From Reichenbachiella ulvae (GTDB lineage Bacteria > Bacteroidota > Bacteroidia > Cytophagales > Cyclobacteriaceae), in the NCBI RefSeq assembly GCF_025833875.1, contig NZ_JAOYOD010000001.1, positions 1,240,001 through 1,304,000 of the forward strand: a stretch of 64,000 nucleotides of DNA, written 5' to 3'. Below the pieces are notes generated by a model. It ran no database searches. It was not told the DNA's origin and was given only the letters and a program-made list of their open reading frames with translations. Below are positions 4,733 to 19,298 of the stretch, one piece after another. Position 1 is the stretch's first letter. Each line of letters starts with the position of its first letter. The translations under genes and the position numbers were made by a program.

Positions 4733-4765
4733 TCTGCACTAATGCTACCGAATTCTAAATAGACC

Positions 4766-5107
4766 TTGCCACTATCCAAAAACATCAAAGTATTGAGTGG
4801 ATGGGTAAGTACTTTAGTAAAAACAACCAACTGGAATATGCTAAAATTAGAGCTGAGCACCTTCGTCGAAAATGGAAAAATAGAAATAAGCCTGAATGGT
4901 GAATTGATACTAGAAGAGGTAGGTGCCAAATATCTTCAGCTACCTATTTTGACTGGAAGGGATTATAAGCTAGGCTGGACGATTAGAGGGCAGGCAGGCT
5001 CGGCTTATAGTATTAGCATTTCATCTCCCGCGTCTGCAGAATTCGAGATGCGCAAGGTGATCCCGAAAGAAGAACACGAAACAAATTATATTCAATTTAA
5101 TACCTAA
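4766..5107 (+). CDS. Hypothetical beta-rich protein
   Basis: A 113-aa frame opening at TTG 4766; an in-frame ATG at 4838 (MLKLELSTFVENGK) gives an 89-aa alternative. Alternating hydrophobic and polar residues (KIEISLNGELILEEVG, YKLGWTIRGQ, SAYSISISS) suggest a beta-sandwich. The family is not recognised. It follows the LytTR regulator by 33 bp on the same strand and precedes another unknown gene by 11 bp, so all may share a transcript. The uncertain start and small size limit confidence. Confidence 0.5.
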   Translation: MPLSKNIKVLSGWVSTLVKTTNWNMLKLELSTFVENGKIEISLNGELILEEVGAKYLQLPILTGRDYKLGWTIRGQAGSAYSISISSPASAEFEMRKVIPKEEHETNYIQFNT

Positions 5108-5118
5108 ACAATACGAAT

Positions 5119-5820
5119 ATGGAATATGCAATAACATTTGAAGATGCTGTTAAATATATTGAGGCATTTGTTAATCATAGGGAGTTAGAAACTGTTGCTA
5201 GAGAAATGGCACTTGGTGGAACCATTCTTCGGCAGGGGATTTATGGAGGAATAGAAACCCTCGTTAAGGATACTGGAAATGCTGGTTGGTATTGTTTAAA
5301 CGATGAAAATTCTGATTTTCCAAAATTATTTCTAAGCTTTGAAGAAAATGATCAATATGAGGAAGACAGAAGACTCGAGAGTCCTGTGAAAGAAAATTTA
5401 CATTGCCCAGTTAAGGCTTCAGTATTCAAGTATTCTGGAGATGGTTCTACTCAGGATATATTCAATTTGCTAAGTACACATACTGATAAAAGAGAGCCAA
5501 TCAGCATGAATATAAACCAATCAGAAGTACTGAGCTTCAAAACAAATTTTTTGAATAACTCAGTATTCAAAAAGTATATGCAAGTTCCATATGGTTTTTT
5601 TGAGAATAGAAATCATCCTGAAGTATTAGAATTATTTGTGAATAATTCTAATATAGTATACATCCGTTACTACTTTGGCTTTGATGAGAACGTAGATAAT
5701 AAAATCAGAATTATTTTGATCGGTGTTGATAAGCAGGGGAAAAACATAGTTCCGGAAATAAAAAGTCAAGTTTTGCTTGATGACGATAAAATTCTTGAAA
5801 ACTCATGGCCTCCTAAATAA
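5119..5820 (+). CDS. Hypothetical protein (233 aa)
   Basis: A 233-aa soluble protein with no signal peptide. No catalytic motif is recognised. The N-terminal half is rich in Glu and Gly (GGTILRQGIYGGIETLV, NAGWYCLNDEN); the C-terminal half has hydrophobic strands (YIRYYFGFDEN, KIRIILIGVDKQGK). It has AT-rich codon usage like its neighbours. It sits 11 bp after the previous frame and 24 bp before a membrane protein, inside an accessory gene run. Function unknown. Confidence 0.65.
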   Translation: MEYAITFEDAVKYIEAFVNHRELETVAREMALGGTILRQGIYGGIETLVKDTGNAGWYCLNDENSDFPKLFLSFEENDQYEEDRRLESPVKENLHCPVKASVFKYSGDGSTQDIFNLLSTHTDKREPISMNINQSEVLSFKTNFLNNSVFKKYMQVPYGFFENRNHPEVLELFVNNSNIVYIRYYFGFDENVDNKIRIILIGVDKQGKNIVPEIKSQVLLDDDKILENSWPPK

Positions 5821-5844
5821 TAAATAATTGAGTTAAATTTAGAT

Positions 5845-6498
5845 GTGGATTATATACTAGCCATAATATCTACATTATTTGTTTTGCTGCCCATTTTTTT
5901 GGGTTGTTGGTCATGCTGGCAAAAAGCCGAAGGTACACTTCGGCTTTTTGTTGTTTTTCTCCTCTTTGGTTTTGCCATAGATGGCATGGGTTGGTATCAG
6001 TACCATCAAAACTTATCCCATGGGTCTATTGATTTTCTTCGCAGATTTTATGCCCTGGTAGAGGCTTTGTTTTTTGCATGGTTTACTTTGCAGCACATTA
6101 AAACTAAAAAACTCTTTTATTCCAAGGCTATTTTCTTTTCTCTTATTCTATTATGGATGTGGCTTGAGATATTTATTCCACATTTAGGGAATGGAGTAGA
6201 GAAATATGCCGGTTTTCAGGCCATTTACCGTGTCCTTATTTCGGTGCTATCCGGTTGGGTCATACTTTCTGTGCTTGAAGAAGGCAAAGCCTATGCCCAA
6301 AATTCCACTCTTTGGTTTCTCTTTGGTGTTTTTTGCTACTCGCTATGCACTTTTATCATGATGATCTTTCAGCGTATTCCTGGACTGGCTGAAGAGCTAT
6401 GGCCTATGCACAATGTGATCAATATCATTTGCTATGTCCTATTTAGCATAGGATTTCTTTTACATCCCAGATCAAAAATTTACTTATCCAGAATCTAA
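5845..6498 (+). CDS. Seven-helix integral membrane protein, hypothetical
   Basis: A 217-aa protein that is mostly membrane helices (about seven, starting with YILAIISTLFVLLPIFLGCW and ending with VINIICYVLFSIGFLLH). The start is GTG at 5845. The pattern of short loops and a Trp/Tyr-rich interface resembles uncharacterised 7-TM proteins of Bacteroidota; no transporter or enzyme motif is recognised. A perfect terminator-like hairpin lies inside the reading frame at 5921-5949 (separate entry), which may limit its expression. Confidence 0.7.
   Translation: MDYILAIISTLFVLLPIFLGCWSCWQKAEGTLRLFVVFLLFGFAIDGMGWYQYHQNLSHGSIDFLRRFYALVEALFFAWFTLQHIKTKKLFYSKAIFFSLILLWMWLEIFIPHLGNGVEKYAGFQAIYRVLISVLSGWVILSVLEEGKAYAQNSTLWFLFGVFCYSLCTFIMMIFQRIPGLAEELWPMHNVINIICYVLFSIGFLLHPRSKIYLSRI
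5921..5949 (+). terminator. Terminator-like hairpin inside a coding region
   Basis: AAAAAGCCGAAG, a GTACA loop and CTTCGGCTTTTT form a perfect 12-bp stem ending in a T run. This is a textbook intrinsic terminator shape, but it lies at codons 26-35 of the 7-TM protein gene. It could attenuate transcription from the upstream operon or mark where an older gene ended. Confidence 0.55.
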
Positions 6499-6664
6499 AT
6501 ATTTCTTCCAGAAACTAGATTTAGGCTACCACTTACTAGTTATTTGTTCCATGAGGGGCATCGATGCTGTAATTTCATTTTCACAATATTAGGGTAAGGC
6601 CTTTGCTCTTAAGAAAGGCCTAATCTACCACCAATTCAATTTCCAATTAATAAACCAAATACTT

Positions 6665-7123
6665 ATGAAAAATAATAGAGTAATAATTGTTATTCTGCTA
6701 CTATCAATTCTAGTCAGTTGTAAACCATATGAGTTATACTATGTTGCCGAAACACCCGAAATTATTGCAAAGGTTGATGCACTCCTTACAAATAAAAGAG
6801 GGAAACTCGCACTATATAGTGAATCTAATTATATCGTTTTTTGTAAAGGTCAAATTGATATTGGCACAGGATTGACCAAAAATGAAAGCAATCTGTCATC
6901 AAGGCTTGAAGTTAACTATAAAAAGGATTTTACAAATGAAACAGAAGTTTCCCCAGTCGTAGTTAAAGAAAGTGGATTCACAATTATGTATGTTCCAAAA
7001 TCAGAAACGTTCCTATGGTTTAATACAATTGATGTATTAAATATGGTTCCTAGTGGGAAAACACCAATTCTTTTAGAGGATAATACTGGCAAATTCGAAT
7101 CAATAATAATGTTTCAAAATTGA
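6665..7123 (+). CDS. Small lipoprotein, hypothetical
   Basis: A 152-aa protein with an N-terminal membrane segment and lipobox (IVILLLSILVSC, Cys19), so it should be a lipid-anchored envelope protein. The mature part (KPYELYYVAETPEIIAK...) shows no known motif. The start is ATG at 6665 after a purine-poor leader. The stop is followed almost at once by the protease gene region, so the two may be functionally linked. Family not recognised. Confidence 0.7.
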   Translation: MKNNRVIIVILLLSILVSCKPYELYYVAETPEIIAKVDALLTNKRGKLALYSESNYIVFCKGQIDIGTGLTKNESNLSSRLEVNYKKDFTNETEVSPVVVKESGFTIMYVPKSETFLWFNTIDVLNMVPSGKTPILLEDNTGKFESIIMFQN

Positions 7124-7179
7124 ATTTGATTTTGAAAATAAATGATATAAAAAAATCTAATCAAAAAAAAACTAAAATC

Positions 7180-8109
7180 ATGAATGACAAAAATCAACAA
7201 TTAGTTAGTAATACTTTATTGGATTTGAAGCCACTAAATTCATCTTTTCAAATCCAATCTGATACCGATTCAGTTTCAATTGTTCCCGAGCAAATAGAAA
7301 AAGTTGAATTGGCAAGCGAAAACCCAATTCCAGTTTCAGGTTATAAAGAGCAGAATGAAAATTATTCTGAAGAACTTGATGAAATAAATAAGTCATTTAA
7401 TTTTTCAAAATACCCTAATGATCAAATTGCAGAAGTAATTATTGGTACTGACGATCGTAAAAGGATTAATCAAACCACCTCTTGGCCATATTTAACGCAT
7501 GGTCATATGGTAATTAAGTTTCCGAATAATAAAGTTTATATCGGTTCCGGTACAATAGTCAATAAACATCATGTAATTACAGCGGGGCATTGTGTGTTCT
7601 CAAAGCGTGATGGTGGTTGGGCTAAATCTGTAATGTTTTATCCGGCTCAGAATGACAACTATCTGCCTTTTGGTGGTATTCCAGTTGTAAAGCTTTGGAG
7701 TGTAAAGGGATGGACTGAGAAAAGCGATACAAATTGGGATTTTGGCATGTTGATTCTTAACGAAGAAATTTATAAAAAAACTGGTCATTTGGGAATAATA
7801 GCTTATCGTGACCATCGTAAATTATTACGTCATAGAGTTAATGTTACAGGATATCCAGGAGATAAAGGTGGTAGACAAATGTGGACCCATGCCGATATTA
7901 TTAAATCAACGTCAAACCAAAGGGTTATTTATGATATAGATACAATGGGTGGACAAAGTGGAAGTGGTGTATGGAGCAAATTCGATAATTACAAACCTTA
8001 TCATGTATGTGCCATACATACTACAGGTGATTATTCTGGTAATGGGGCAACTAGAATAAGTATGGCTCTATTTGATAGTATAGTTAAGATAATGAGTTCG
8101 TCTTTTTAA
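7180..8109 (+). CDS. Trypsin-like (V8/glutamyl endopeptidase-type) serine protease
   Basis: A 309-aa chymotrypsin-fold protease. The catalytic triad is visible: His137 in VITAGHCVF, Asp187 in TNWDFGMLIL and Ser260 in GGQSGSGVW. Residues 1-95 are a polar, probably disordered extension, and the protease domain spans about 95-305. The frame could open at TTG 7120, but ATG 7180 (MNDKNQQLVSN) is preferred. No signal peptide or lipobox is seen with either start, which is unusual for an S1 protease and suggests a cytosolic role or a non-classical export route. It lies just after a lipoprotein gene. A strong hairpin terminator follows at 8163. Confidence 0.85.
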   Translation: MNDKNQQLVSNTLLDLKPLNSSFQIQSDTDSVSIVPEQIEKVELASENPIPVSGYKEQNENYSEELDEINKSFNFSKYPNDQIAEVIIGTDDRKRINQTTSWPYLTHGHMVIKFPNNKVYIGSGTIVNKHHVITAGHCVFSKRDGGWAKSVMFYPAQNDNYLPFGGIPVVKLWSVKGWTEKSDTNWDFGMLILNEEIYKKTGHLGIIAYRDHRKLLRHRVNVTGYPGDKGGRQMWTHADIIKSTSNQRVIYDIDTMGGQSGSGVWSKFDNYKPYHVCAIHTTGDYSGNGATRISMALFDSIVKIMSSSF

Positions 8110-8162
8110 TTGGCAATTTTAGAATACAAAATAAATTCATTATCGAGCACCTTTTGAACAAA

Positions 8163-8203
8163 AAACCACCCCAATTATCAAAATATGAATAACGGGGTGG
8201 TTT
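8163..8203 (+). terminator. Intrinsic terminator after the protease gene
   Basis: AAACCACCCC and GGGGTGGTTT form a 10-bp stem with a 21-base AT-rich loop, 53 bp after the protease stop. The T tail is short (TTT). Confidence 0.7.
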
Positions 8204-8225
8204 CATTAGACAGATCGCAAAATCG

Positions 8226-8345
8226 TGAGTACTAACTCATGACACTGATGAGTACTAACTCAGCGATGTAGTGAGTACTAACTCACGAGAGTCATGAGTA
8301 CTAGCTCAGTGATCTGATGAGTATTCACTCACAACTCTATGAGTA
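8226..8345. repeat. Palindrome array, TGAGTACTAACTCA repeated every 23 bp
   Basis: Five copies of a 14-bp imperfect palindrome start at 8226, 8249, 8272, 8295 and 8318: three exact TGAGTACTAACTCA copies, then TGAGTACTAGCTCA and TGAGTATTCACTCA. A partial sixth (TGAGTA) starts at 8340. The repeat-to-repeat period is exactly 23 bp, and the 9-bp spacers differ from each other (tgacactga, gcgatgtag, cgagagtca, gtgatctga). The array ends at the stop codon of the minus-strand HU-like/DUF4469 gene. Each unit can form a 5-bp hairpin as RNA or bind a dimeric protein as DNA. Confidence 0.9.
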
Positions 8346-8349
8346 ATTG

Positions 8350-9042
8350 TCAGACGGTCAATTCTTCAAGAAGACTGCCTTTGCGTATGGATTTGTTGTT
8401 AGTGAAGATGGTACGAACCTCCAATCTATAGGGTCCGGCTGCCAGGCCCTCTGGTACACCAAGGATCACATTGCTAGGCTTGTTGCGGAAATACTGGGTG
8501 GCACGGGTTTCGGTACCGTCAGCTGCTATAAAGAAGACACCCTGCTGCTGGTCGCTCGCGTCAAATTTGAGGCGGCTGCCTCTGAGCTCACCCACACCCC
8601 CTGCACTCAAAGTCTCATTGATGGTGTCAGAATTGAAGTCTCTGAAGGTTTTAGGGTTAGGCTGTGGAGCCTGGCCTTCTACTTTCACTGGTTTCAAGGT
8701 CTCAGCGATCGGATTGATTCGACCGCCAGCGGTTACATTCAGACGCAGGTAGTGACGAGATCGATCGAAGCTGTCTTGCTGATTGTCAAATACTCCCTGG
8801 ATCGAGGGTGAGATACGAAACAAATCTGTGTTGATGCTGTATCCCGCTTCGAGGGTCCTTTCTACTGCGCCATGAAACTCCTCCAGGACAGATAGCGCCT
8901 CTGCCTTGGTAACTGTACTACCTCTACCGATCATTTCGTCGATCAGGTCTTCGAGGCTCTTGGATTCTTGATTCTGAATGATCCCTATGAAGTCGTCGGC
9001 TTCAGTAAGGTGATTGGAGAACAAACTATACTGTATGCTCAT
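8350..9042 (-). CDS. HU-like DNA-binding protein with C-terminal DUF4469-type domain
   Basis: A 230-aa protein. The N-terminal part (about 1-125) matches the HU/IHF-like domain of Bacteroidota in order and spacing: NHLTEADDFIGIIQNQESKSLEDLIDEMIGRGSTVTKAEALSVL..., then RHYLRLNVTAGGRI. The C-terminal part (about 130-230) looks like the DUF4469 immunoglobulin-like domain (RGSRLKFDASDQQQGVFFI...YRLEVRT). These proteins are thought to bind DNA as nucleoid-type factors. There is no signal peptide. The 23-bp periodic palindrome array lies directly downstream of its stop codon and could be a binding site or a 3' RNA structure; that link is inference. Confidence 0.85.
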   Translation of the reverse strand: MSIQYSLFSNHLTEADDFIGIIQNQESKSLEDLIDEMIGRGSTVTKAEALSVLEEFHGAVERTLEAGYSINTDLFRISPSIQGVFDNQQDSFDRSRHYLRLNVTAGGRINPIAETLKPVKVEGQAPQPNPKTFRDFNSDTINETLSAGGVGELRGSRLKFDASDQQQGVFFIAADGTETRATQYFRNKPSNVILGVPEGLAAGPYRLEVRTIFTNNKSIRKGSLLEELTV

Positions 9043-9298
9043 ATTATTTGTGTATTAAAAGTTAAAAAATCGATTCGATTTTTCTCTGGCTGCTGTGTGT
9101 CGGTAGAGGGCTTTTATTTGCATTACATGCCTATAAATACCCCGTGCTGAAGCAGCTAAGGCGGTGAGCGGGAGGGAAGGGCCGCTAGACAAAAGCCCGA
9201 TGATGGGTCGATGTGTTGTTGAAAAGAGTGAAACTCCGACAGGATGCCGAAGACGGTTGGTTCATGCATAGCTGGTTAATTCGTTTGGTTAGTCTTAC

Positions 9299-9568
9299 AT
9301 GATTCAGGGAGCCTTCCAAAGCTTCCGTCATGAGCATCATTTTAAGACCACAGTAGCTGGCACAGTAATGACCGATCATTTCGACTACACTTCGCCTCTG
9401 GACCTGCTCGGACGACTGGCGGACGTCCTCTTTCTCCAACGCTACATGACACGCCTACTCACCCAGCGCAATCAAGTGATTAAGGAAGTGGCTGAAGAGG
9501 GGAGAGAAAATACCAAGAAATGGGGATGGTTTGAGATTCAGAATTGTAGGAGTTTGCAAAAATATTAA
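9299..9568 (+). pseudogene. 3' fragment of a SRPBCC-family protein gene
   Basis: An 89-aa frame whose sequence (GAFQSFRHEHHF..., VMTDHFDYTSPLDLLGRLAD, RYMTRLLTQRNQVIKEVAE) is the C-terminal half of a well-known SRPBCC/polyketide-cyclase family of about 150-165 aa. The N-terminal half is missing: the same frame has a TAG at 9290, and the upstream 130 bp encode nothing resembling the missing part. The last ~18 residues have also diverged from the family. It is most likely a remnant left by a rearrangement at the left border of the 9.66-17.3 kb operon. Confidence 0.65.
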
Positions 9569-9657
9569 TGACTAGTTATTTACCTTCTGAATAGCACTAT
9601 CTCATTTTATGATATACAATATTTTCTATCTATTTTGGCACCTCATCAAATAAAAGT

Positions 9658-9855
9658 ATGATGAATCGGATAAAAGAAGTGTTATTTGAAAAAGCTGTTA
9701 CTCAAACCTGGCTAGCTGAGAAGCTAAATAAGAGTTACAATATGGTAAACTCATATGTTCAAAATAGAAGGCAACCGAGTCTAGAAGATTTGCATAAAAT
9801 TGCAAATATCTTGGATATTGATGTACGGGAACTTATAACTCCAAATAATATCTAG
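9658..9855 (+). CDS. XRE-family helix-turn-helix regulator
   Basis: A 65-aa single-domain HTH_3 protein (KAVTQTWLAEKLNKSYNMVNSYVQNRRQPSLEDLHKIANIL). The recognition helix is KSYNMVNSYVQ. Size and position, 2 bp before a DNA methyltransferase, match controller (C) proteins of restriction-modification systems, which time expression of the nuclease relative to the methylase. It is probably the first gene of the six-gene operon and likely regulates it. The upstream 90 bp are AT-rich and should hold the promoter and operator; no clear dyad was identified by eye. Confidence 0.85.
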   Translation: MMNRIKEVLFEKAVTQTWLAEKLNKSYNMVNSYVQNRRQPSLEDLHKIANILDIDVRELITPNNI

Positions 9856-9857
9856 CC

Positions 9858-10850
9858 GTGAGTATAGTTTATTCAACGCAGCTAGGTAGAATGGTCAAAG
9901 GTGATGCCGTAAAGCTTCTTCAAAGTGAGGAAGTTGTTGAAAATCTGGAAGGAAAGGTAGATTTAATAATAACCTCTCCACCGTTTCCGCTCAATAACAA
10001 AAAGAAGTACGGTAATAAAATAGGAGAAGATTATCGCAATTGGTTTATTGGGCTTGCACCCGTCTTTTCCAAGTTACTATCAGAGAAGGGGTCACTTGTT
10101 ATAGAAATAGGTAATTCTTGGGAACCAGAAAGACCTGTACAATCTCTGCTCCATCTTGAATGCTTATTAGGACTTGTAAATCATCCAACATCAGAATTAA
10201 GATTGATTCAAGAGTTTATATGCTATAACCCGTCAAAACTGCCCTCCCCAGCACAGTGGGTTACGGTCAACAGACTAAGAACTGTAGATAGCTACACCCA
10301 TGTTTGGTGGATTGCAAAATCTGATTTTCCAAAAGCCGATAACAGTAAGGTACTTAGACCTTATAGTAAGAGCATGAAGAAGTTGTTGGAAAAGCAAGAA
10401 TACAACTCGGGAAAAAGACCATCTGAACACGTCATTAGTGGAGATGGATTTTTGAAAGATCATGGAGGTAGCATTTCTCATAATTTTTTCGAATTGGAAT
10501 CATTGGATGAAAAAAGAGATGTACGTTTACCTCATAACGTATTGAGTTATTCCAATACAAATTCCAATGACTATTTTCTCAAGAAATGCCGTGAGAAAAA
10601 TATCACACCGCATCCAGCAAGAATGAATAAGGGTTTAATTGAATTTTTTATTGAGTTTTTAACCGATAAAGGAGATTTGGTACTTGATCCGTTCGGGGGA
10701 AGTAATACTACTGGTTATTGCGCAGAATTAAGTTCAAGAAAATGGATTTCATTTGAAATTGATGATAGCTATATAAAACAGTCTAAAATCAGATTCCAAG
10801 ACCCTAAAATCTCACCACCTAAAAAGGTTCACCGTAATGACAGTAAATGA
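9858..10850 (+). CDS. Beta-class DNA methyltransferase (probably N4-cytosine)
   Basis: A 330-aa site-specific DNA methyltransferase. Catalytic motif IV reads TSPPFPL (residues 39-45), and the SAM-binding motif I, DPFGGSNTTG, comes near the C-terminus (277-286). This order defines the beta class, and a S/T-PP-F/Y motif usually means N4-cytosine (sometimes N6-adenine) methylation. The target recognition region would be about 90-230. The start is GTG 9858, two bases after the XRE gene stop. It overlaps the HerA gene by 14 bp. No classical type II restriction endonuclease is adjacent; the partner is presumably the HerA-NurA-HNH machinery downstream, with methylation marking self DNA (inference). 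Confidence 0.9.
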   Translation: MSIVYSTQLGRMVKGDAVKLLQSEEVVENLEGKVDLIITSPPFPLNNKKKYGNKIGEDYRNWFIGLAPVFSKLLSEKGSLVIEIGNSWEPERPVQSLLHLECLLGLVNHPTSELRLIQEFICYNPSKLPSPAQWVTVNRLRTVDSYTHVWWIAKSDFPKADNSKVLRPYSKSMKKLLEKQEYNSGKRPSEHVISGDGFLKDHGGSISHNFFELESLDEKRDVRLPHNVLSYSNTNSNDYFLKKCREKNITPHPARMNKGLIEFFIEFLTDKGDLVLDPFGGSNTTGYCAELSSRKWISFEIDDSYIKQSKIRFQDPKISPPKKVHRNDSK

Positions 10851-12840
10851 AGAAATAAAAAGAATAGCATCCGTTGACCCTTTAAAAGAGGGTAGAAAGT
10901 CTGAACTGTTCGTTGGCCATCCCTTTCAGTTGGATTATAACAAAGCAAGTGTATTGGTATGCGATGATGATAAACAAAAGGTGAATGGAATAGCTCAGGG
11001 CACATTCTTGTTGGCATTTTATGATAATGAAGATGAAGTGGAAGAAGCAATTTTATTGAGAGCTTTGAACCCAGCGAGACTTCCTACTGATAGTGCGGTT
11101 GTAGGTTCAATGATTGAGTATTATAAAGACAACCTGCCAACATCAGGCAAGAATTCGAAACTCGATGATTTTACAAGATATGAGTTTAGCTTCTCAGGTT
11201 TAGAATGTAGAGTGCTAGGAACATTTTATAGATCTGGAGAAAAAGCGATTGAATTTGGGGCTGACTTAGAAAATTTCTATTCTGCACACCATTATAGTGT
11301 TTATAAAGTAAACAATGATGTCTTAGGATACATAGTAAATCAACGTGATTCCCCAGATATTGTACCAGGCAATGAAAATGAATTTCCTCTAGGATCAGTA
11401 AGATACAGTTCAAGCTTAAGATTTCAGAATAAATCAGAACAGGCTAAGGTTTATCTTAATCCAGCAGACTTGATTGGTAAAAGAAGCGCCTTGTTTGGGA
11501 TGACAAGAACAGGAAAATCGAACACGGTAAAAAAGGTAATTCAAGCGACGACTGAAATTTCATCTAAAGCTCGATCCTCTCTTGGTGATAAATCCATCAA
11601 GACTGAAGAAAATTTGGAGTCATTTACTGAAAAAGGATCACCAAAATACATGGTCGGTCAAATAATCTTTGATGTCAATGGGGAATACGCAAATGCCAAT
11701 CTTCAGGACGAAGGGACAGCCATTTTTGAAATGTATGCCAGTGATGTAACCAGATATAGTGTGCTGGATAAACCTGGATTTACAGTAATGAAGGTGAATT
11801 TTTATAAGCAAATCCAAGCAGGATTCGAATTGATCAAAAGTTACCTTGCTGATGACTCAGCTGACTTTGTAAAAAGTCTTTTGGCTGTCAATCTGGAGAA
11901 GCCTAGTGATGATTTGGATGAAAGTGCTAAATGTAGGTGGGAAAGAAAAATAGCCGCTTATTTATGTTGCTTAAAGAAAGCAAATTTCCCGTTACCTAGT
12001 GATATGAAAACTCTTAAATTCTCAGGTAATGCTGATTTGAATAATCTAGTTAAACCTGACGGTAGCCTGGACCCTAAAAGAGGTATTTCTTTTGATCAGG
12101 CTATTAATTGGTTTGAAACAATCTGGGATAATTATGGCAATGATTTCTTTAAGAATTATCGAGCTAAAAGGGATAAAGAGTGGGCTGATGAAGACTTACA
12201 AGCTATATTAGTTTTCCTTACGAGAAAGAGAAAACCAGGTAAATCAGTAGATAATAATGGTTATTTGAGATTAAGAGGTATTATCGAACAACATACTCCG
12301 ACAGGTGATGAAGCTTTTACATCAGATATAGTAAAGCTTCTACGACAAGGGAAGATTGTGATTGTAGATATTTCTCAAGGTAATCCTGGCATACAAAAAA
12401 TGTATTCTGAAATGCTATGTAAGAGCATTTTTAATGATTCAATGAACCGGTTTATAGCCAATTCACCTAATAATTTCATCCAATTTTATTTCGAAGAAGC
12501 TCATAACTTATTTCCCCAAAAAGAGGATAAAGATTTGAATAAGATATACAATAGAATAGCGAAAGAAGGAGCCAAACTTAATTTAGGAATGATGTACGCT
12601 ACCCAAGAAGTATCATCAATCAGTTCCAACATTCTTAAGAACACACAAAACTGGTTTATAGCACATCTCAATAACGAAGATGAAATCAGAGAATTGAGGA
12701 AATACTATGACTTTAGTGATTTTACGGACTCATTAATTCGATTCAGTGCGAAAAATGATAAGGGTTTTGTTAGAATGAAAACTTATTCAAATCCATTTGT
12801 GGTCCCTGTTCAGATTGACAAGTTCTCAACTTCACAATAA
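10837..12840 (+). CDS. HerA-like ATPase (FtsK-HerA superfamily, DUF87-type)
   Basis: A 667-aa hexameric-type DNA translocase. The Walker A loop is GMTRTGKS (221-228) after the HAS-barrel-like N-terminus (ADLIGKRSALF). The Walker B motif is FYFEEAHN (550-557), and a downstream QEVSSIS (about 589-595) with NWFIAHLNNEDE matches the HerA C-terminal sensor region. HerA works with NurA to resect DNA ends in archaea, and bacterial HerA-nuclease pairs act in phage defence. A long insertion (about 255-480) between the Walker motifs is larger than in archaeal HerA. It overlaps the methyltransferase by 14 bp and is followed 13 bp later by the nurA-like gene. Confidence 0.92.
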   Translation: MTVNEEIKRIASVDPLKEGRKSELFVGHPFQLDYNKASVLVCDDDKQKVNGIAQGTFLLAFYDNEDEVEEAILLRALNPARLPTDSAVVGSMIEYYKDNLPTSGKNSKLDDFTRYEFSFSGLECRVLGTFYRSGEKAIEFGADLENFYSAHHYSVYKVNNDVLGYIVNQRDSPDIVPGNENEFPLGSVRYSSSLRFQNKSEQAKVYLNPADLIGKRSALFGMTRTGKSNTVKKVIQATTEISSKARSSLGDKSIKTEENLESFTEKGSPKYMVGQIIFDVNGEYANANLQDEGTAIFEMYASDVTRYSVLDKPGFTVMKVNFYKQIQAGFELIKSYLADDSADFVKSLLAVNLEKPSDDLDESAKCRWERKIAAYLCCLKKANFPLPSDMKTLKFSGNADLNNLVKPDGSLDPKRGISFDQAINWFETIWDNYGNDFFKNYRAKRDKEWADEDLQAILVFLTRKRKPGKSVDNNGYLRLRGIIEQHTPTGDEAFTSDIVKLLRQGKIVIVDISQGNPGIQKMYSEMLCKSIFNDSMNRFIANSPNNFIQFYFEEAHNLFPQKEDKDLNKIYNRIAKEGAKLNLGMMYATQEVSSISSNILKNTQNWFIAHLNNEDEIRELRKYYDFSDFTDSLIRFSAKNDKGFVRMKTYSNPFVVPVQIDKFSTSQ

Positions 12841-12853
12841 CCTAAAAATAAGG

Positions 12854-14191
12854 ATGTCATATTCAAGTAGATATGGGAAAAGACCTCAAGAGTTGGCAAG
12901 TATGTCATCTCATTCAAATATTATTAATGATTCTGACGTTCGAGAATTCCTTGAAAATTGTGAATATCCAAAAGGAAAAGAAGAAATATCAATTAATGAT
13001 ACACTAATCATTGATGTTAACTTTCCGAATTCAAATCATGTAAAACACATAATTGCTGTCGATGGCGGTTATTCGACAGTCCCGGTAAAAAAGACTTTTC
13101 CTTCCTCGCTACTCACATTTTTTCAATTCGGAACGCTGTTACTAAGTACAAATGACCTTGATCATATTTCTGAGCAACCTTTTATTTCTAGGGAAGCAAT
13201 GACGAAGCTGAAGGATTTGGAAAGAGATAAGCTGGTTTTGCCCACTAAAAATGTTGCATATAATAAGTCTAACTCATTAGTCGAATCTGTAAGGCAGAGC
13301 ATCTACCGCTTTTTTCAAAGAAAGGATGACGGAACGACTCTTTTAGAAACATTGCATTGGTTCTTATATGAAGAGTATAATCAACCAATTGATTCGTATC
13401 AGTTAGCTAGTTGTCCTCATTGCCACGAAACTAGAATAGACCTCTATAGAACAAAATTCCATCCGGACTTTTCTCAAGATTGCGAGAATTGTGGAAGGTC
13501 AATATTGATTACCGATATTTTTCGATTCCATGAAGTAGTGGACAATGAAACAGGTGCTGGAGGTATTTTGGGTTATTTGACCAATCTCATTGAGCATTTC
13601 AACTTAATACATCAAATAAAAAATGTAAGGGCCTCAAAGCCAGAACTTCTCCAATCATTCATGTTCATAAAAGACGGTCCTTTGGCTTTCTTTGGTCAAA
13701 CTGCTGGTTTACATAAGCCCATGAGAAGACTCTGCAACTTCTTGTTTCAAACTAATAATTTGTTTTTTGCAGGGCTTGAAAAATCAGGAGCATTCGTAGA
13801 GCATGCAGATGAAATAAAGGATTTGATAAAACCAGGCCAGGCCTTAATTCTTGACAATAAGCATATATATCAAAACATTCTTCCAGGTGATCCTGATACA
13901 CCGGATCCATATGGAAGTACATCTTACTATAGTTCCAAACTGATTTTCAAATCAAGAGATGAACGTATGCATGTTGTTACGTTACCTGTTGATAGTGAAT
14001 CAATTGTACTTAATCCGCAACGAAAAGATTTCAACAATCTTGATATGATTCTGTGGAATATCGAAAAACTTAGATGTGACATGTATGATAATGCCATAAT
14101 ACCTGTTGCCCTTGCCAATAAGCTGATATCATTATCTAATCACCCAAGTTCTGTTATTCTTGAAAAGTTTGCCACAAAGACCGTAAAATGA
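12854..14191 (+). CDS. NurA-domain nuclease with zinc ribbon
   Basis: A 445-aa NurA-family nuclease. The signature near the N-terminus, HIIAVDGGYSTVPV, holds the metal-binding Asp70. A four-cysteine zinc ribbon is inserted at C187-x2-C190 and C210-x2-C213 (CPHCHETRID...CENCG). A later acidic/His segment (GQALILDNKHIYQNIL) is likely the second part of the active site. ATG 12854 is preferred over the frame-opening 12797 because AAGG lies just upstream and the earlier start would overlap herA. It overlaps the next gene by 4 bp. NurA has 5'-3' exonuclease and endonuclease activity when driven by HerA. Confidence 0.85.
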   Translation: MSYSSRYGKRPQELASMSSHSNIINDSDVREFLENCEYPKGKEEISINDTLIIDVNFPNSNHVKHIIAVDGGYSTVPVKKTFPSSLLTFFQFGTLLLSTNDLDHISEQPFISREAMTKLKDLERDKLVLPTKNVAYNKSNSLVESVRQSIYRFFQRKDDGTTLLETLHWFLYEEYNQPIDSYQLASCPHCHETRIDLYRTKFHPDFSQDCENCGRSILITDIFRFHEVVDNETGAGGILGYLTNLIEHFNLIHQIKNVRASKPELLQSFMFIKDGPLAFFGQTAGLHKPMRRLCNFLFQTNNLFFAGLEKSGAFVEHADEIKDLIKPGQALILDNKHIYQNILPGDPDTPDPYGSTSYYSSKLIFKSRDERMHVVTLPVDSESIVLNPQRKDFNNLDMILWNIEKLRCDMYDNAIIPVALANKLISLSNHPSSVILEKFATKTVK

Positions 14192-16425
14192 TTTTCGTTG
14201 ATAGAAATATTGTCAGTATTCCAGAGGTGTTTTCCACTAAAGAAATGGAAATTGCTAATGATAGATTAAAAGAATTTTACAATCAACCAAGTAAATCCAG
14301 AAGTCAAAAGCGATACTCAAGGCCTTTTGAATTTGATCTTAGAGAACCCATTAAAATTTCATTGCACAGTTTATTTAGAAGCAAATGTGCATACTGTGAA
14401 TCAATTGTTAAGAAAGGATCAAAAACAGAATATGATCACTTTAGACCAAAATTTGGTGCAAGAGGTGACGAGAAGGAGTTTTCTCAAGATCATTATTGGT
14501 GGTTAACCTACAATTGGAACAATTTCTATTTGGCGTGCTCAGAATGTAATCGATATAAGGCAACTTGGTTTCCGGTAGTTGGTAAAAGGGCGAAACCTGA
14601 AAGCAATTATGAAGATATCCTCAAAAAGGAGAAACCTTTATTTATAGATCCCTGTAAGGATATGCCATCTGACCATTTCAGTTTTAATAATTCTGGAGAA
14701 ATTGAATATTTATCTGAAAGAGGAAAAGTAACAATCGAATTGCTTAATCTAAACAGAAGTAAGCTTGTAGGGCTCAGGAAAAATGAAATTCAAAATACTT
14801 TCGGAGAATGGGAAGAACTGTCAAAGCTTTGGCGAAAGAAAGAAAACAATTGGTCTAGAATTAATGAAATAGTAGCAGCGTGGCGCGAAATAATTTCTGA
14901 GAAAAGTAGTCGACCATATGTCGCAGCTACAAAGACACTAATCCTTGATAGAATTCAAACCATTTCAGAAATTGAGGAACATATTTTAGACAAGACTTCT
15001 CAAAGTGACCTTCAAAAAATCAAAACTAAAGATCCGATTAAGAAAAAGGTTGTTCCCAAACCCAAAACAACCCCAAAAGAGAATGTAGTAAAAATACCCA
15101 CAAAGACTTCTGATTTATCAATCTCAGCACACACGCCAACTATTAAAACCAATCAAGTTTTTCTGGAGAGACTTGAATTGAAAAACTACAAGTGTTTTGA
15201 TTATATAAACCTCAATTTATCGCAAACAAGGCTAGATAATAGTGAAAGTGGTGAACCCTGGCATTTGATTCTTGGTGAAAATGGTGTAGGTAAAAGCTCA
15301 ATACTTAAAGCAATTAGTATTGCATTACTTAATAAATCATCTATAGCAAAGCTGTCACATGAGATCAATTCAAAAAAATTACTTAAGAATGGAAAACAAT
15401 CAGGTCACATTAAGCTGACATATAATCAAGGTCAAGAAGTCATTGTCAATTTTTCCAAGAAGGATAACTCAATCAAAACAAGTGTTGAAGAACCCCTAAC
15501 AAACATAATTGCATATGGCTCAGTAAGATTATTACCAAAGGGTGATATAAGATCTGAGCAAAGTGAATTTAACAATATCAGAGTTGGTAACCTCTTTGAT
15601 TATTCTATCGCTCTTAGAGATGCCAATGAATGGTTGTTATCAAGAAGTCGAGGTGAATTTGATAGAGAAGCAACCACTCTGAAGGAGTTAATGCTTCTTA
15701 ATGAAAATTGTGTCCTAAGAAGAATTAATAAAGAGATACAGGTTACTTTCCCTGACCAAAAACCCATTTCTATTGATGAGTTGAGTGATGGATATAAAAT
15801 GGTTTACGCTATGGCCGTTGATATCATGTCAAGCCTTTCATCAGAGAATATTAATTATAACCTGGCACATGGAATTGTACTAATTGATGAGATAGGAACG
15901 CACCTTCATCCCAGATGGAAAATGCAAGTTGTTGAAAGGCTGAGGAGCTCATTTCCAAATCTTCAATTCATTGTTTCAACCCATGAACCACTCTGTTTAC
16001 GGGGCTTGGGGCCAGGTGAAGTTATAGTTCTGGCAAAAAATGATGCTAATGAAATTATTGCAATAGATGATTTGCCTGATCCAAGCGAGCTTAGAATTGA
16101 TCAAATACTAACCTCAGAGTTCTTTGGATTGAAAAGCACATTTGACCCTAAAACCGAACAAATCTTCGAAGAATACTATGGACTATTAGCGAAAGATGAA
16201 GAGGAGAGGGACTTGAAAGAAAAGACGCGACTTGTTGAGTTGAGTCAGCTTATTCCTCGTATCAAGCACCTTGGAGACAATATTCGTGAGAATTTAGTAT
16301 ACCATGTTATTGATGAATTGTTAGCAAGAAAAGTCAAGGATGAAGGAATGAAGATGGAGGATTTAAAAAAAGAGGCTGTTGAAAGAGTGATTTCAATTTG
16401 GGAAAAAATCGAGCAGGAGGGATGA
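14188..16425 (+). CDS. PtuB-PtuA fusion: HNH endonuclease joined to ABC/RecF-like ATPase
   Basis: A 745-aa two-domain protein. Residues 1-290 are a PtuB-like HNH domain (TIGR02646 type) with zinc Cys67/Cys70 (CAYC) and Cys117/Cys120 (CSEC), and the catalytic D83-H84 in EYDHFRPK. A Lys/Pro-rich linker (about 285-330) joins it to an ABC-type ATPase with Walker A GENGVGKS (363-370), signature LSDGYK (around 533), Walker B IVLIDE (563-568) and switch His599 in VSTHEP. In Septu systems, and in retron Ec78-like systems, PtuA (ATPase) and PtuB (HNH) are separate proteins; here they are fused, with HNH first. The gene overlaps nurA by 4 bp and the next HNH gene by 4 bp. Confidence 0.9.
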   Translation: MIFVDRNIVSIPEVFSTKEMEIANDRLKEFYNQPSKSRSQKRYSRPFEFDLREPIKISLHSLFRSKCAYCESIVKKGSKTEYDHFRPKFGARGDEKEFSQDHYWWLTYNWNNFYLACSECNRYKATWFPVVGKRAKPESNYEDILKKEKPLFIDPCKDMPSDHFSFNNSGEIEYLSERGKVTIELLNLNRSKLVGLRKNEIQNTFGEWEELSKLWRKKENNWSRINEIVAAWREIISEKSSRPYVAATKTLILDRIQTISEIEEHILDKTSQSDLQKIKTKDPIKKKVVPKPKTTPKENVVKIPTKTSDLSISAHTPTIKTNQVFLERLELKNYKCFDYINLNLSQTRLDNSESGEPWHLILGENGVGKSSILKAISIALLNKSSIAKLSHEINSKKLLKNGKQSGHIKLTYNQGQEVIVNFSKKDNSIKTSVEEPLTNIIAYGSVRLLPKGDIRSEQSEFNNIRVGNLFDYSIALRDANEWLLSRSRGEFDREATTLKELMLLNENCVLRRINKEIQVTFPDQKPISIDELSDGYKMVYAMAVDIMSSLSSENINYNLAHGIVLIDEIGTHLHPRWKMQVVERLRSSFPNLQFIVSTHEPLCLRGLGPGEVIVLAKNDANEIIAIDDLPDPSELRIDQILTSEFFGLKSTFDPKTEQIFEEYYGLLAKDEEERDLKEKTRLVELSQLIPRIKHLGDNIRENLVYHVIDELLARKVKDEGMKMEDLKKEAVERVISIWEKIEQEG

Positions 16426-17306
16426 TAGAAATCGATAGGAATACTATACCAAAACCTAAGGTTCTTGATGGTACAAATTCGAAAGGCGGAAAGGAAACTG
16501 CTAAAGCTATAGCTTATTACTCAAATCCATTCAATACTAAGCCTTATAAGAAATTTTCAGTATACAGAGATAAAGAAGTTAAGGAAGCCCTTATTAAGCT
16601 TTTCAAAAAGAAATGTGCCTATTGCGAAAGTACTTTTCTTCATGTCTACTCTGGGGATATTGAACATTTTAGACCTAAAGGTGAAATTGATGAAGCAAAT
16701 CCGTCAAAACCTGGGTACTACTGGCTCGCAGCAGACTGGGATAATTTACTTCTATCGTGCAGGAATTGTAATCAAAAGCTTACTCATCAGATTCATGGTG
16801 AGGCCAATGCTAAAACAATGGGCAAAATGAATCAATTTCCTTTGATTGATCCACAAAAGTATGTCAGATCACATAGCAATCCAAATGGCATAAATAATGA
16901 AGAGTCATATAGATTGTTACTTAATCCTTGCGAGGAAAATCCTGAAATCCACCTTGAATATGACATCAATAGTGGTGTCATAAAACCTAAAAAAATAGAT
17001 GGTATTCCAAGCGAAAAAGGTAAAAAATCAATAGAAGTATATGTATTGCAAAGAGTTCCTTTGGTACAAGCAAGAGAAAAGGTGTTAATAGAAATTCTAG
17101 CACAAATCCAAAGAGTAAAAGAAGGTGTGAAAAATGTAAATGATAGTCTCACTAAAGAGACTGCAATGCAGATCTATTTCAACGATATTCTTAAAAGGGA
17201 ATTAACAATATTGAAGAAGTACATGAAGCCAACAGAACCGTATTCCGCTATGGCAAAACAAGTTATTGGTGAATTTATGAAAAGTAATTTCTCAGTAAAT
17301 GTGTAA
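16422..17306 (+). CDS. Second PtuB-like HNH endonuclease
   Basis: A 294-aa HNH protein of the PtuB/TIGR02646 type. Zinc cysteines C65/C68 (CAYC) and C113/C116 (CRNC) frame the catalytic EH in GDIEHFRPKG (E81-H82), followed by YYWLAADWDNLLLSC. ATG 16422 is chosen because AGGAGGG lies immediately upstream and the ATGA overlap with the preceding stop is typical of this operon; the frame also extends to a TTG at 16398. It is the last gene of the operon. It resembles the N-terminal domain of the upstream fusion protein, so the system carries two different HNH modules. Confidence 0.88.
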   Translation: MIEIDRNTIPKPKVLDGTNSKGGKETAKAIAYYSNPFNTKPYKKFSVYRDKEVKEALIKLFKKKCAYCESTFLHVYSGDIEHFRPKGEIDEANPSKPGYYWLAADWDNLLLSCRNCNQKLTHQIHGEANAKTMGKMNQFPLIDPQKYVRSHSNPNGINNEESYRLLLNPCEENPEIHLEYDINSGVIKPKKIDGIPSEKGKKSIEVYVLQRVPLVQAREKVLIEILAQIQRVKEGVKNVNDSLTKETAMQIYFNDILKRELTILKKYMKPTEPYSAMAKQVIGEFMKSNFSVNV

Positions 17307-17885
17307 TATGTGAACTGGGTCGGATACGAGAAAAATCTTCCAGTATAGCAATATTATGTTAAGTAAGAATTGAGCGATGGCCTGCCAAAATACCTGGGCG
17401 TGGGTAGGTCAGTGGACTAATAGGTAATTATTTTGTCGAAACGTCGAACCGCTAGTTTTTTGCATACTTTTTATCACAGCATCGGCTGCCGATAAAAAAG
17501 GATGAGCCCAACGGCTTGAGAGATTAAGCGAACATTGTTGAAAGTAAGCCAGTCTTTGAAACTGCCTGCAAGGCTCAAGGAGATTCTCACGTCATCATTC
17601 AGCTTATCAGCTGACTGATTCCTCAGAATGACGCTCTTAATATGGCTTGTGATATTATTAATTATATAGGCAAGGATGTGTTTTGCCTTAATCTATAAGC
17701 GGAATCGTTATTGAACTTGATCGCGAAGGACTCATCAGGATCGATAACTGATTTTATCGGTGCGACGGACGCTTAAATATCCGCTGCGCAGCTATTCCGG
17801 CAAATCCATATTAATGTTATATAATTAATATTATGTTAAATATAACTATAGACAATCCAGTCTTATGACCTTTATTGCCTAATTT
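17307..17885. other. Intergenic stretch after the defence operon, with a large hairpin
   Basis: About 580 bp without a convincing gene. At 17463-17504 an imperfect inverted repeat, CATACTTTTTATC against GATAAAAAAGGATG, encloses a GC-rich centre (AGCATCGGCTGCC). The adjoining text (gagcccaacggcttgagag) looks like non-coding repeat or end-of-gene debris. It may mark the right border of the inserted 9.66-17.3 kb segment and may supply the operon terminator. Confidence 0.45.
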
Positions 17886-19298
17886 TTACATTTTTATAAA
17901 CTGTATGGAATCCTGGAAATCATTCCCCTTCAACTTCAATATGAATATTCCCCTTTCGATACTTTCGATGTTGACAGGCTGAGAGAATACCTTGGAGTTT
18001 TTGATCCAGCTACCCTCGGTCACTAATGCTCCGGAAAGATTTACAATCTGGTAATCCAATTGACCTTTGTATGCGTTATCCAAATCCAAAATTAGACTGT
18101 GCGTCCCAACCTTTACTGGATTCGGGTATAAAGAAATACCTCCAGGATAATCATTAGCGTCTGCACTGAGAATTCCGTCTACAGAGATTACCAATGGAAC
18201 TTCATAAGATCCTTCGCTGTTTGAAAGCCCGACACGTACCTGGTAGCTGCTTTGATCGATAAATCTTGTCGCTTCTTCAATCACCAATTCATTGGAACTA
18301 TTGATTGAGAATTTATCATTGTCAGCATCACCCTCGCCAGACACCAGCAGATATTTTCTAGGATACGAACCATTTCCAGACAACTGACCGACTATTGTAC
18401 CAGCCGCTTCTTCATCTTCCAATTCAGTGTTCGAGATTTTCAATCTGCTTGGCGCATGGGTTTTGGTGTGTAATGTCAGCCATTCGTACCAGGTATCATC
18501 TTCTGCTGTCCAGTTGTAATATTCTGTACCTGAAATGGTGCCTTCTAGCTGCTCCTTGCCTTGACCAGTGTTGTCATAGACTTCTTCCCAGGCACTATGT
18601 CCCATGCCTTTGTAGGCAGTTAGTCTTGATCTTTTGGGATCTAAGCTCTGTACTGCATTGTGGAAGTTCTCTACAGCCCCTATTGCATTGGGTGAAGAAT
18701 CATTGGTCCCGTGATGAATCCATACATATTGGTCATTGTTGATGATCCTTTGTGCATAATTGTTGGCATTATTCAAATTGGTTGACATGGGGGTCAGCGT
18801 GGCAAACATCTTATACAAGTCGTCATTTTCGACAATAAATTCTCTAATACCATAGCCCCCAGCTGATAGTCCAGCCAAATGCAATTGATAAAAATCTATG
18901 TTGTCAACGTATTCTTCTGTAGCCCATTGTACGAAACGGGTCAATCGGGATGGATATGCGCCTCCAAAGTATCCATTGTGATCCTGAGGAGCAAATACGA
19001 TAAATGGGATATCATGGGTTTTGAGCCATTCGCAGATTTGATCATTGTATATCTTATTCAAATTGTTCAGGGAGCCATCGCCATCTTTGCCCAGGCCATG
19101 CAGCCAGAAAATGACTGGGTATTTGGTTTCACCAGAATCATCGAAATTCTCGGGTAGATAAATGACAAAGCCTCTGGGGTTCAAGAAGGAAGCTTTATTG
19201 TTTTGTGTTTTAATGGCAACCTTTGATACCGTACCATTTTGTGCTAAGGCCTGCCCTACGATCAACAAGAGTAACAGGTAGATTGGAATGATTTTCAT
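17886..19298 (-). CDS. Secreted alpha/beta-hydrolase (esterase-like) with T9SS sorting domain
   Basis: A 470-aa secreted hydrolase. A signal peptide (MKIIPIYLLLLLIVGQALAQ) is followed by an esterase/polyhydroxybutyrate-depolymerase-like domain (about 40-275). This has an oxyanion-region WLHGLG, the nucleophile Ser in LHLAGLSAGGYG, a likely Asp in HHGTNDSS and the catalytic His in GMGHSAW. A cadherin-like segment (about 290-370) and a type IX C-terminal domain (GISLYPNPV... to the end, FIKM) follow. The T9SS tail means export across the outer membrane to the cell surface or medium. The substrate is probably a polysaccharide ester or similar polymer; this is inference. Confidence 0.87.
   Translation of the reverse strand: MKIIPIYLLLLLIVGQALAQNGTVSKVAIKTQNNKASFLNPRGFVIYLPENFDDSGETKYPVIFWLHGLGKDGDGSLNNLNKIYNDQICEWLKTHDIPFIVFAPQDHNGYFGGAYPSRLTRFVQWATEEYVDNIDFYQLHLAGLSAGGYGIREFIVENDDLYKMFATLTPMSTNLNNANNYAQRIINNDQYVWIHHGTNDSSPNAIGAVENFHNAVQSLDPKRSRLTAYKGMGHSAWEEVYDNTGQGKEQLEGTISGTEYYNWTAEDDTWYEWLTLHTKTHAPSRLKISNTELEDEEAAGTIVGQLSGNGSYPRKYLLVSGEGDADNDKFSINSSNELVIEEATRFIDQSSYQVRVGLSNSEGSYEVPLVISVDGILSADANDYPGGISLYPNPVKVGTHSLILDLDNAYKGQLDYQIVNLSGALVTEGSWIKNSKVFSQPVNIESIERGIFILKLKGNDFQDSIQFIKM

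Follow-up and report, generated by a model that had tools for sequence, protein, structure and literature searches.

Within a 64,000-nucleotide stretch of the Reichenbachiella ulvae genome (contig NZ_JAOYOD010000001.1, positions 1,240,001 to 1,304,000; the whole stretch is called the window below), an operon at positions 9,658 to 17,306 encodes six proteins: an XRE-type regulator, a DNA methyltransferase (MTase), a HerA-family DNA pump, a NurA-family nuclease, a PtuB-PtuA fusion and a second PtuB-like nuclease (PtuB2). This operon is probably a two-layer anti-invader system, in which a HerA-NurA core gated by methylation is joined, in the Bacteroidota variant seen here, by a captured Septu-type back-up. 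By comparing its relatives in other genomes, we found that the conserved unit is MTase-HerA-NurA and not one six-gene system. Gene order, gene families, linkage, block transfer, a change of MTase class and a mosaic HerA are all seen directly in the genomes compared.

An alignment of one protein, the NurA-like one, was the sole query in a search of GTDB genomes, which gave 97 confirmed relatives, and the best 80 loci were retained (given L numbers below). Other genes in these loci were found with profiles from the remaining operon proteins, the MTase being absent from the query. Loci truncated by a contig end were left out before counting (L035, L061, L063 and L064 for HerA; L020, L024 and L025 for the MTase), and L118, L119 and L120 were not counted twice beside L005, L011 and L040. 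HerA adjoins NurA in 75 of the 80 loci, or 75 of the 76 in which at least 300 bp upstream is present; four of the five NurA loci without HerA are truncated at a contig end, and L036 lacks HerA despite 10 kb of upstream sequence. Of 72 testable loci, 63 have an MTase at most 1.1 kb upstream of HerA; in 62 of these it shares the HerA strand, and in 56 it lies within 50 bp. Because the MTase recurs in this place although it was absent from the query, we take MTase-HerA-NurA to be the conserved core. The 80 loci span 17 named phylum labels (7 loci are unlabelled) and three are archaeal. NurA distances correlate with those of both the MTase and the HerA core (Mantel 0.55 and 0.57, 0 of 2000 permutations, 49 rows).

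The XRE gene behaves differently from the other five. Its relatives amount to two weak phmmer matches (20-21 bits) in 84 loci, and a block shared by L008 and L009, described below, does not contain it, which rules out a six-gene unit; XRE is likely a regulator of the operon that is not conserved with the other genes. The earlier note had held that all six genes form one system, and had named a lack of joint conservation in other genomes as the finding that would speak against this: that lack was found for XRE and not for the remaining five. These occur in two families as a common block of about 7.5 kb, and they consist of two modules, each existing without the other.

The arrangement in the window, with six same-strand open reading frames separated by gaps or overlaps of 2-14 bp, was reproduced as the earlier note had described it, coordinates included (positions within the window; + is the forward strand):

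9658..9855 (+), XRE/HTH_3 small regulator (Pfam HTH_3, 1.5e-8)
9858..10850 (+), MTase, beta-class N6/N4 DNA methyltransferase, M.PvuII-like (PF01555 N6_N4_Mtase, 3.7e-29), 2-bp gap after XRE
9972..9986 (+), TSPPF catalytic motif of the MTase (S40, P41 and P42 at least 97% conserved, 52 rows)
10686..10700 (+), DPFGG S-adenosylmethionine-binding motif of the MTase (D277, P278, F279 and G281 at least 97% conserved, 52 rows)
10837..12840 (+), HerA-family hexameric DNA translocase, TdpA-like (Pfam DUF87/HerA, 3.3e-11), 14-bp overlap with the MTase
11497..11520 (+), HerA Walker A GMTRTGKS (invariant, 22 aligned rows)
11812..12396 (+), HerA helix-bundle insert, residues about 326-520 (hypervariable, mosaic between lineages)
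12484..12504 (+), HerA Walker B region FYFEEAH
12854..14191 (+), NurA-family nuclease with zinc ribbon, TdpB-like fold, from its ATG, 13-bp gap after HerA
13061..13063 (+), NurA Asp70, predicted metal ligand (invariant, 41 of 41 aligned rows)
14188..16425 (+), PtuB-PtuA fusion (HNH nuclease plus ABC-type ATPase), Septu-type, 4-bp overlap with NurA
14386..14550 (+), HNH motif of the fusion, C67...DHFRP...N112...C117xxC120N
15274..15300 (+), PtuA Walker A GENGVGKSS (invariant in 10 aligned clade members)
16422..17306 (+), second PtuB-like HNH nuclease, PtuB2 (PADLOC PtuB PDLC00319, 4.1e-105), 4-bp overlap from its ATG

The NurA frame is already open from a TTG at 12797, 5' of the ATG at 12854, and the PtuB2 frame opens at TTG 16398, before its ATG. 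Pfam and PADLOC profiles agree with the earlier naming of the XRE, methyltransferase, HerA, PtuB-PtuA and PtuB-like proteins, with an HNH Pfam match of 2.4e-5 in the profile search of the operon proteins.

The MTase has M.PvuII as its best PDB match (1boo, 6.7e-68, residues 4-322), and because of this closeness it is predicted to methylate cytosine at N4. Its catalytic motifs are intact, a feature that it shares, as a linked MTase, with members of restriction-modification systems; the likeness to the PvuII type II system ends with the methylase, since no PvuII-type endonuclease is found among the six genes and an ATP-driven pump-nuclease is present instead. The MTase slot is filled by a beta-class PF01555 protein in 51 loci and by a PF01555 protein of permuted motif order in 12 (by profile; two verified in Pfam), and the class switches within one clade, where L038 stands beside L019 with a Shimodaira-Hasegawa-like approximate likelihood ratio test (SH-aLRT) support of 87. 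Further exchange was seen among distant relatives. Of eight genomes with a distant NurA, four were examined (NurA about 25% identical), and three of these (L127-L129) have a D12/Dam-like MTase directly before HerA. Matches to NurA were also found in five plasmid and two Vibrio phage records, of which five of the seven were inspected: a Deferribacter plasmid has the order MTase-HerA-NurA and a plasmid of the archaeon Halorarius the order HerA-NurA-MTase, both with a permuted-class MTase, and in a Vibrio phage (L135, PQ189371.1, 1-6000) integrase, HerA and NurA stand in this order before a convergent D12 MTase. Different MTase classes thus fill the same role beside a constant HerA-NurA, and the best explanation for such variety is that they have one task in common, the marking of self DNA. 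Exchangeable MTase classes around a fixed HerA-NurA pair are as expected of a restriction-modification-like system.

Some of these distant loci have other contents worth recording. In L130 (6441-15271), which has a distant HerA-NurA pair, a type I hsdR-hsdM-hsdS set begins 40 bp downstream of the pair. The Vibrio phage stretch of L135 also has genes annotated as Shedu and Gabija parts, and the HerA gene of a Deferribacter megaplasmid (L133:4129-7927) is apparently split by an IS200/IS605 TnpA-TnpB element.

TdpAB is an anti-phage pump-nuclease complex of Thermus, in which phosphorothioate on self DNA holds the pump back. The best PDB match of the window HerA is TdpA both by sequence (7.6e-21 in a profile search, the runner-up at 1.6e-11) and by fold (5.8e-19, with 15% identity in the structural alignment; predicted structure, mean predicted local distance difference test score, pLDDT, 76.3). 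For NurA, the only profile match is a Pfam zinc ribbon at E 0.004, below that family's cut-off, and no model of PADLOC 2.0.0 or NCBIfam 20.0, which are libraries of single-protein models, matches at E 0.01. The NurA identity claimed in the earlier note is nevertheless right, on grounds other than the protein's own profile matches, which are insufficient: 10 of 41 aligned members of the window NurA family match PF09376 NurA, and the AlphaFold2 model (mean pLDDT 88.2) has TdpB as its best fold match (8wfd_G, E 3.5e-8), followed by NurA of Deinococcus and Thermococcus, 3tai/3taz, and Sulfolobus. Both proteins therefore match TdpAB ahead of the HerA-NurA repair complexes (HerA by sequence and fold, NurA by fold only).

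The likeness to TdpAB (PDB 8wet, 8wfd and 8y1k) consists of a HerA-like hexameric pump encoded next to a NurA-fold nuclease. The operon differs from it in that the linked modification gene is an MTase, a phosphorothioation enzyme having this place in TdpAB; in a HerA of 667 rather than 586 amino acids; in structural identities of 15% (HerA) and 10% (NurA); and in the captured Septu-type pair. No modification family other than the MTase was found by Pfam on the six operon proteins. By analogy, the simplest reading of the window HerA-NurA would be a TdpAB-like machine gated by methylation. In the mechanism that we propose, the M.PvuII-like MTase would mark host DNA, a HerA hexamer would feed DNA into NurA, which would degrade it, and the methyl mark would, by a direct or an indirect route, spare the chromosome from the pump-nuclease, as phosphorothioate does in TdpAB. 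The Septu-type module (PtuB-PtuA and PtuB2) would provide a back-up effector whose target is nucleic acid, perhaps tRNA. Anti-phage activity, gating by methylation and cooperation of the two layers are what we infer. Thus, of the combined system put forward in the earlier note, the anti-invader role, the methylation self mark and HerA-NurA as the attacker stand, all by inference, and the conserved unit is MTase-HerA-NurA.

HerA-NurA complexes of Sulfolobus, Deinococcus and Thermococcus have the same two folds, adjacent genes and the conserved NurA Asp, and the Deinococcus pair has been studied as an end-resection complex (PMC9960219), so that the window pair could be a DNA-repair machine next to an unrelated orphan methylase. 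We give this very little credence. The operon NurA is found in one of eight genomes of the genus, being absent from all seven others, and in 4 of 98 relatives (own genome included in both counts), which is not the vertical distribution of a housekeeping gene and led us to reject housekeeping repair as the principal explanation. An MTase is linked in 63 of 72 loci, in keeping with a sporadic, MTase-linked pair, while the available text on the repair complexes mentions no MTase partner, and the structural match to them is weaker than that to TdpAB. Furthermore, one archaeal HerA-NurA degrades both strands of a duplex, for which its authors suggest antiviral defence (PMC12977600, in the part available).

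Among the literature matches listed, the nearest described operon is tdtA of the Thermus element ICEth1, which as described in the accessible part of PMC5365140 unites a NurA-like nuclease, a HerA/FtsK ATPase and an N4/N6 methylase with a type IIG enzyme. By analogy, HerA-NurA could prepare or pump DNA for donation while the MTase protects or marks that DNA, and the same source reports that transjugation drops by 4-5 orders of magnitude in Thermus nurA-like mutants, with no transfer by tdtA mutants. The tdtA operon, compared here by description only, differs in including the type IIG enzyme Tth111II and in serving DNA donation. No relaxase or conjugation family was found among the ten flanking proteins scanned in the window, and elsewhere the core adjoins a phage integrase and is spread over widely differing hosts; we consider a transfer function improbable.

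The second module, the Septu-type pair (PtuB-PtuA and PtuB2), was found behind NurA in 8 of the 80 scan loci, in the window and in two more genomes, for a total of 11 loci. In the NurA tree, which omits the near-duplicates L051 and L052 and NurA rows shorter than 400 amino acids, a single branch has all 11 pair-bearing rows on the same side (SH-aLRT 86, and 98 for ten of them). The five non-XRE genes are all present in 11 of 11 clade loci, although this figure is partly circular as the clade was recognised by the pair, and L010 carries breaks. Throughout the clade, PtuB-PtuA and PtuB2 are both retained, as genes that overlap or nearly touch. Chryseobacterium L008 (Weeksellaceae) and Belliella L009 (Cyclobacteriaceae) have 7,469 bp in common, 89.2% identical as DNA, which begin a little way into the MTase gene and end shortly after PtuB2; no second alignment reaches 150 bp. 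With one such stretch between members of different families, the sequences indicate that MTase-HerA-NurA-PtuB-PtuA-PtuB2 move as a block. Extra downstream sequence is shared by L008, L011 and L125: L008 and L011 both carry two additional genes there, of which L125 has at least the first. These genes, behind PtuB2 (L008:14442-16973 and the L011 counterparts), code for one HNH_2 protein and for another protein, about 576 amino acids long, without a Pfam or PADLOC match at the limits used.

The membership features of Septu are present in the pair, namely a PtuA-type ATPase with Walker motifs and a PtuB HNH motif. The fusion matches PADLOC PDLC00292 (1.4e-216, covering 1-720 of 726) as well as solved PtuA chains, and fused forms appear in PADLOC models of 726-773 residues. 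The NCBIfam equivalog cut-offs are missed (119 versus 500 bits for PtuA; 60 and 67 versus 150 bits for PtuB), these models describing the retron Ec78 form. Here, by comparison with Septu and retron systems, PtuB is fused to PtuA, a second PtuB is added and both stand behind an MTase-HerA-NurA core. The HNH His of the fusion is kept in 9 of 10 aligned clade members (His to Arg in L126), and that of PtuB2 in 11 of 11. The earlier note had both HNH modules attacking DNA, which need not hold: a 2026 paper, in its available part, reports that one Septu PtuAB cleaves tRNA-Tyr (PMC13096335), and a review classes Septu and retron-Septu as DNA-acting (PMC12948488, also in part). Since the pair also occurs alone and PADLOC already holds the fused form, these sequence comparisons point to a captured module.

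The same facts bear on whether the two modules cooperate. They could instead be independent systems, a restriction-like MTase-HerA-NurA and a Septu variant, with a common promoter and joint travel. This is consistent with the lack of the pair in 72 of 80 NurA loci, within the sequence covered at each, with its presence at L121-L124, where about 19 kb each contain neither HerA nor NurA, and with its occurrence without the core on a Klebsiella and a Rhizobium plasmid (as annotated; two of five plasmid matches to the fusion were inspected). The two modules are joined only on one side of one branch, but all 11 loci there retain both genes, and the block has been shared as such. Such retention also fits simple operon linkage, and the tree does not tell gain from loss. 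On balance, we regard independence as unlikely, though less so than a transfer function.

Several further points, together with the occurrences of the pair alone and the circularity noted above, count against a two-layer, methylation-gated system. The linkage of the MTase in 63 of 72 loci is a raw count, uncorrected for any background rate, and the same holds for the occurrence of defence neighbours. Nine of the 72 loci, all cyanobacterial, have no MTase in the slot: two have one directly downstream of NurA, three lie behind a helicase-Mod-Res-like run and four have none recognised, with a helix-turn-helix (HTH) regulator as the gene before HerA in L021. On two cyanobacterial plasmids the order is HTH-HerA-NurA, and no adjacent gene is annotated as an MTase. 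MTase and HerA-core distances are weakly correlated (49 rows; Mantel r 0.26, with 66 of 2000 permutations as high). The fold match of NurA to TdpB is moderate (template modelling score 0.52/0.62, the 0.62 on the target; 10% identity), and NurA has no significant PDB sequence match, with TdpB appearing only at E 2.5. Gating by methylation is an argument from analogy to TdpAB. Finally, none of the ten proteins flanking the window operon has a defence or mobility family in Pfam.

These ten flanking proteins are a bestrophin, a histidine kinase and LytTR pair, a trypsin-like protein, an HU/DUF4469 protein, an esterase, an inositol phosphatase and three without a family. The window operon is not in a visible defence island, which slightly lowered our confidence in the two-layer anti-invader reading, and the case for a defence setting comes from other loci. 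Selected neighbours there, uncorrected for chance, are type III-like restriction-modification, Fic/SoFic and UvrD-nuclease genes. In the cyanobacterial loci L056, L059 and L060, a same-strand UvrD/PDDEXK helicase-nuclease (family checked in L059), a methylase-like and a Res-like gene are followed by HerA-NurA, and in L037 (9626-9994) a 122-amino-acid HNH protein sits between HerA and NurA. The HerA-NurA pair is sporadic and mobile, as seen from the five plasmid and two Vibrio phage records, one phage having an integrase beside the pair. In the window, positions 4000-18000 have a low GC content (34-39% in most 2-kb windows, and 43-50% in the adjoining 18-36 kb). No empty site for the operon was found in sister genomes, and one upstream flank gene (compared by protein) and one downstream (by DNA only) had no match in the other seven genus genomes. 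Among viral contigs, 412 pattern matches included no relative, and a single distant DNA search of E. coli with L041 matched nothing.

The most variable part of the core lies in the middle of HerA. In L008, L009 and L011 the HerA backbones are 96-98% identical and the middle is about 34-65% identical, while the middle of L008 is 75% identical to that of the window, that of L009 87% to that of L006, and that of L011 92% to that of L125. Between L008 and L009, synonymous divergence rises from 0.29 in the core to 2.97 in the middle. At the nucleotide level the two are 90-98% identical up to about residue 221, 60-77% from there to about residue 550 and 93-95% beyond it, so that the exchanged stretch is wider than the bundle. 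For the middle region, a tree holding L008, L009, L011 and L125 together is rejected by the approximately unbiased test (p-AU 1.5e-41), the group having been chosen after the alignment was viewed; for the core region, a grouping of L009 with L006 is rejected (p 0.003). A second test, with L006 and L007 added, gave no rejection (p 0.10). The core tree alone does not resolve L008, L009 and L011, and the NurA tree groups them with L010 and L125 (SH-aLRT 100). A similar drop is seen elsewhere (L042/L043, core 85 and middle 36; L042/L041, 84 and 68), and other close pairs have little or none (L055/L057, 96 and 98).

In the predicted structure, HerA residues 326-503 are helical except for bridges of 1-2 residues and lie between two core strands (pLDDT 85-96 over 321-510). 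In a described HerA-NurA complex, NurA docks on the HAS-barrel face, and the putative DNA entrance is formed by a helix bundle inserted in the ATPase core (PMC9960219, in the part available); the variable middle of the modelled HerA is such a helix bundle, at the putative entrance. The MTase of L008, L009 and L011 is 83-90% identical with no comparable drop (its first 80 residues are lower, at 61-75%), and swapping of MTase target domains matched to the HerA variation was sought in these loci and not found. A recombining bundle at the DNA entrance beside a near-constant methylase suggests an invader sensor or an escape from phage inhibitors. Taken further, the loci could represent a prokaryote-wide restriction-modification class in which a ring pump and an RNase H-like nuclease restrict, the MTase is exchangeable and the recombination-swapped HerA bundle sets invader recognition, so that one methylation pattern would be kept while the sensor at the HerA mouth diversifies, with no MTase-matched target domain. 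We hold this only tentatively and find it rather doubtful. The pattern is not unique to HerA: PtuB-PtuA falls to 11-52% over residues about 190-325 with flanks mostly above 90% (L008 versus L011), which may reflect a weakly constrained linker, and the zinc-ribbon part of NurA also varies in more distant pairs. These other variable stretches made us slightly less inclined towards a sensor.

Of the kinds of defence system that the earlier note had listed for comparison (Septu, HerA-Sir2, HerA-DUF4297, DISARM and BREX), Septu is the one whose features the operon has, in its Septu-type pair. HerA-DUF4297 and HerA-Sir2 (Nezha) likewise couple a HerA pump to an effector enzyme and are lower-ranking matches of the window HerA; here the effector is a NurA-fold nuclease with a linked MTase, and no DUF4297 or Sir2 Pfam family is found on the six proteins. 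The core genes of BREX are PglZ/BrxC, those of DISARM DrmAB and those of MADS mad1-8, and membership in these systems was rejected, as no core-gene Pfam family was found on the six proteins. Partial matches due to shared domains, among the matches listed, are mad8 on HerA (1.1e-9, PADLOC) and MADS3 on the ATPase (1.8e-9, NCBIfam). The earlier note knew of no described system with this gene set, and none came up in the protein libraries or in the literature among the matches listed, where no title or abstract describes an MTase-HerA-NurA defence system. A related idea is that of 'HerA/FtsK capture systems' (PMC10853773), whose main text, as available, does not contain the word NurA. We do not claim a first description of the MTase-HerA-NurA set.

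The interest of the operon lies in its exchangeable methylase, mosaic pump and wide spread, together with the capture of a Septu-type module in one clade, which differs from the reason given in the earlier note. HerA-NurA biology was recently shifted, tentatively, from repair towards antiviral defence by a study in archaea (PMC12977600, as far as its available part goes). If the two-layer reading is right, a widely spread cassette (80 loci with 17 named phylum labels among them, archaea included) would join the defence systems, and restriction-modification, TdpAB logic and HerA-NurA biology would become linked. The operon also illustrates how a Septu-type module has joined another system and been shared with it as a block.

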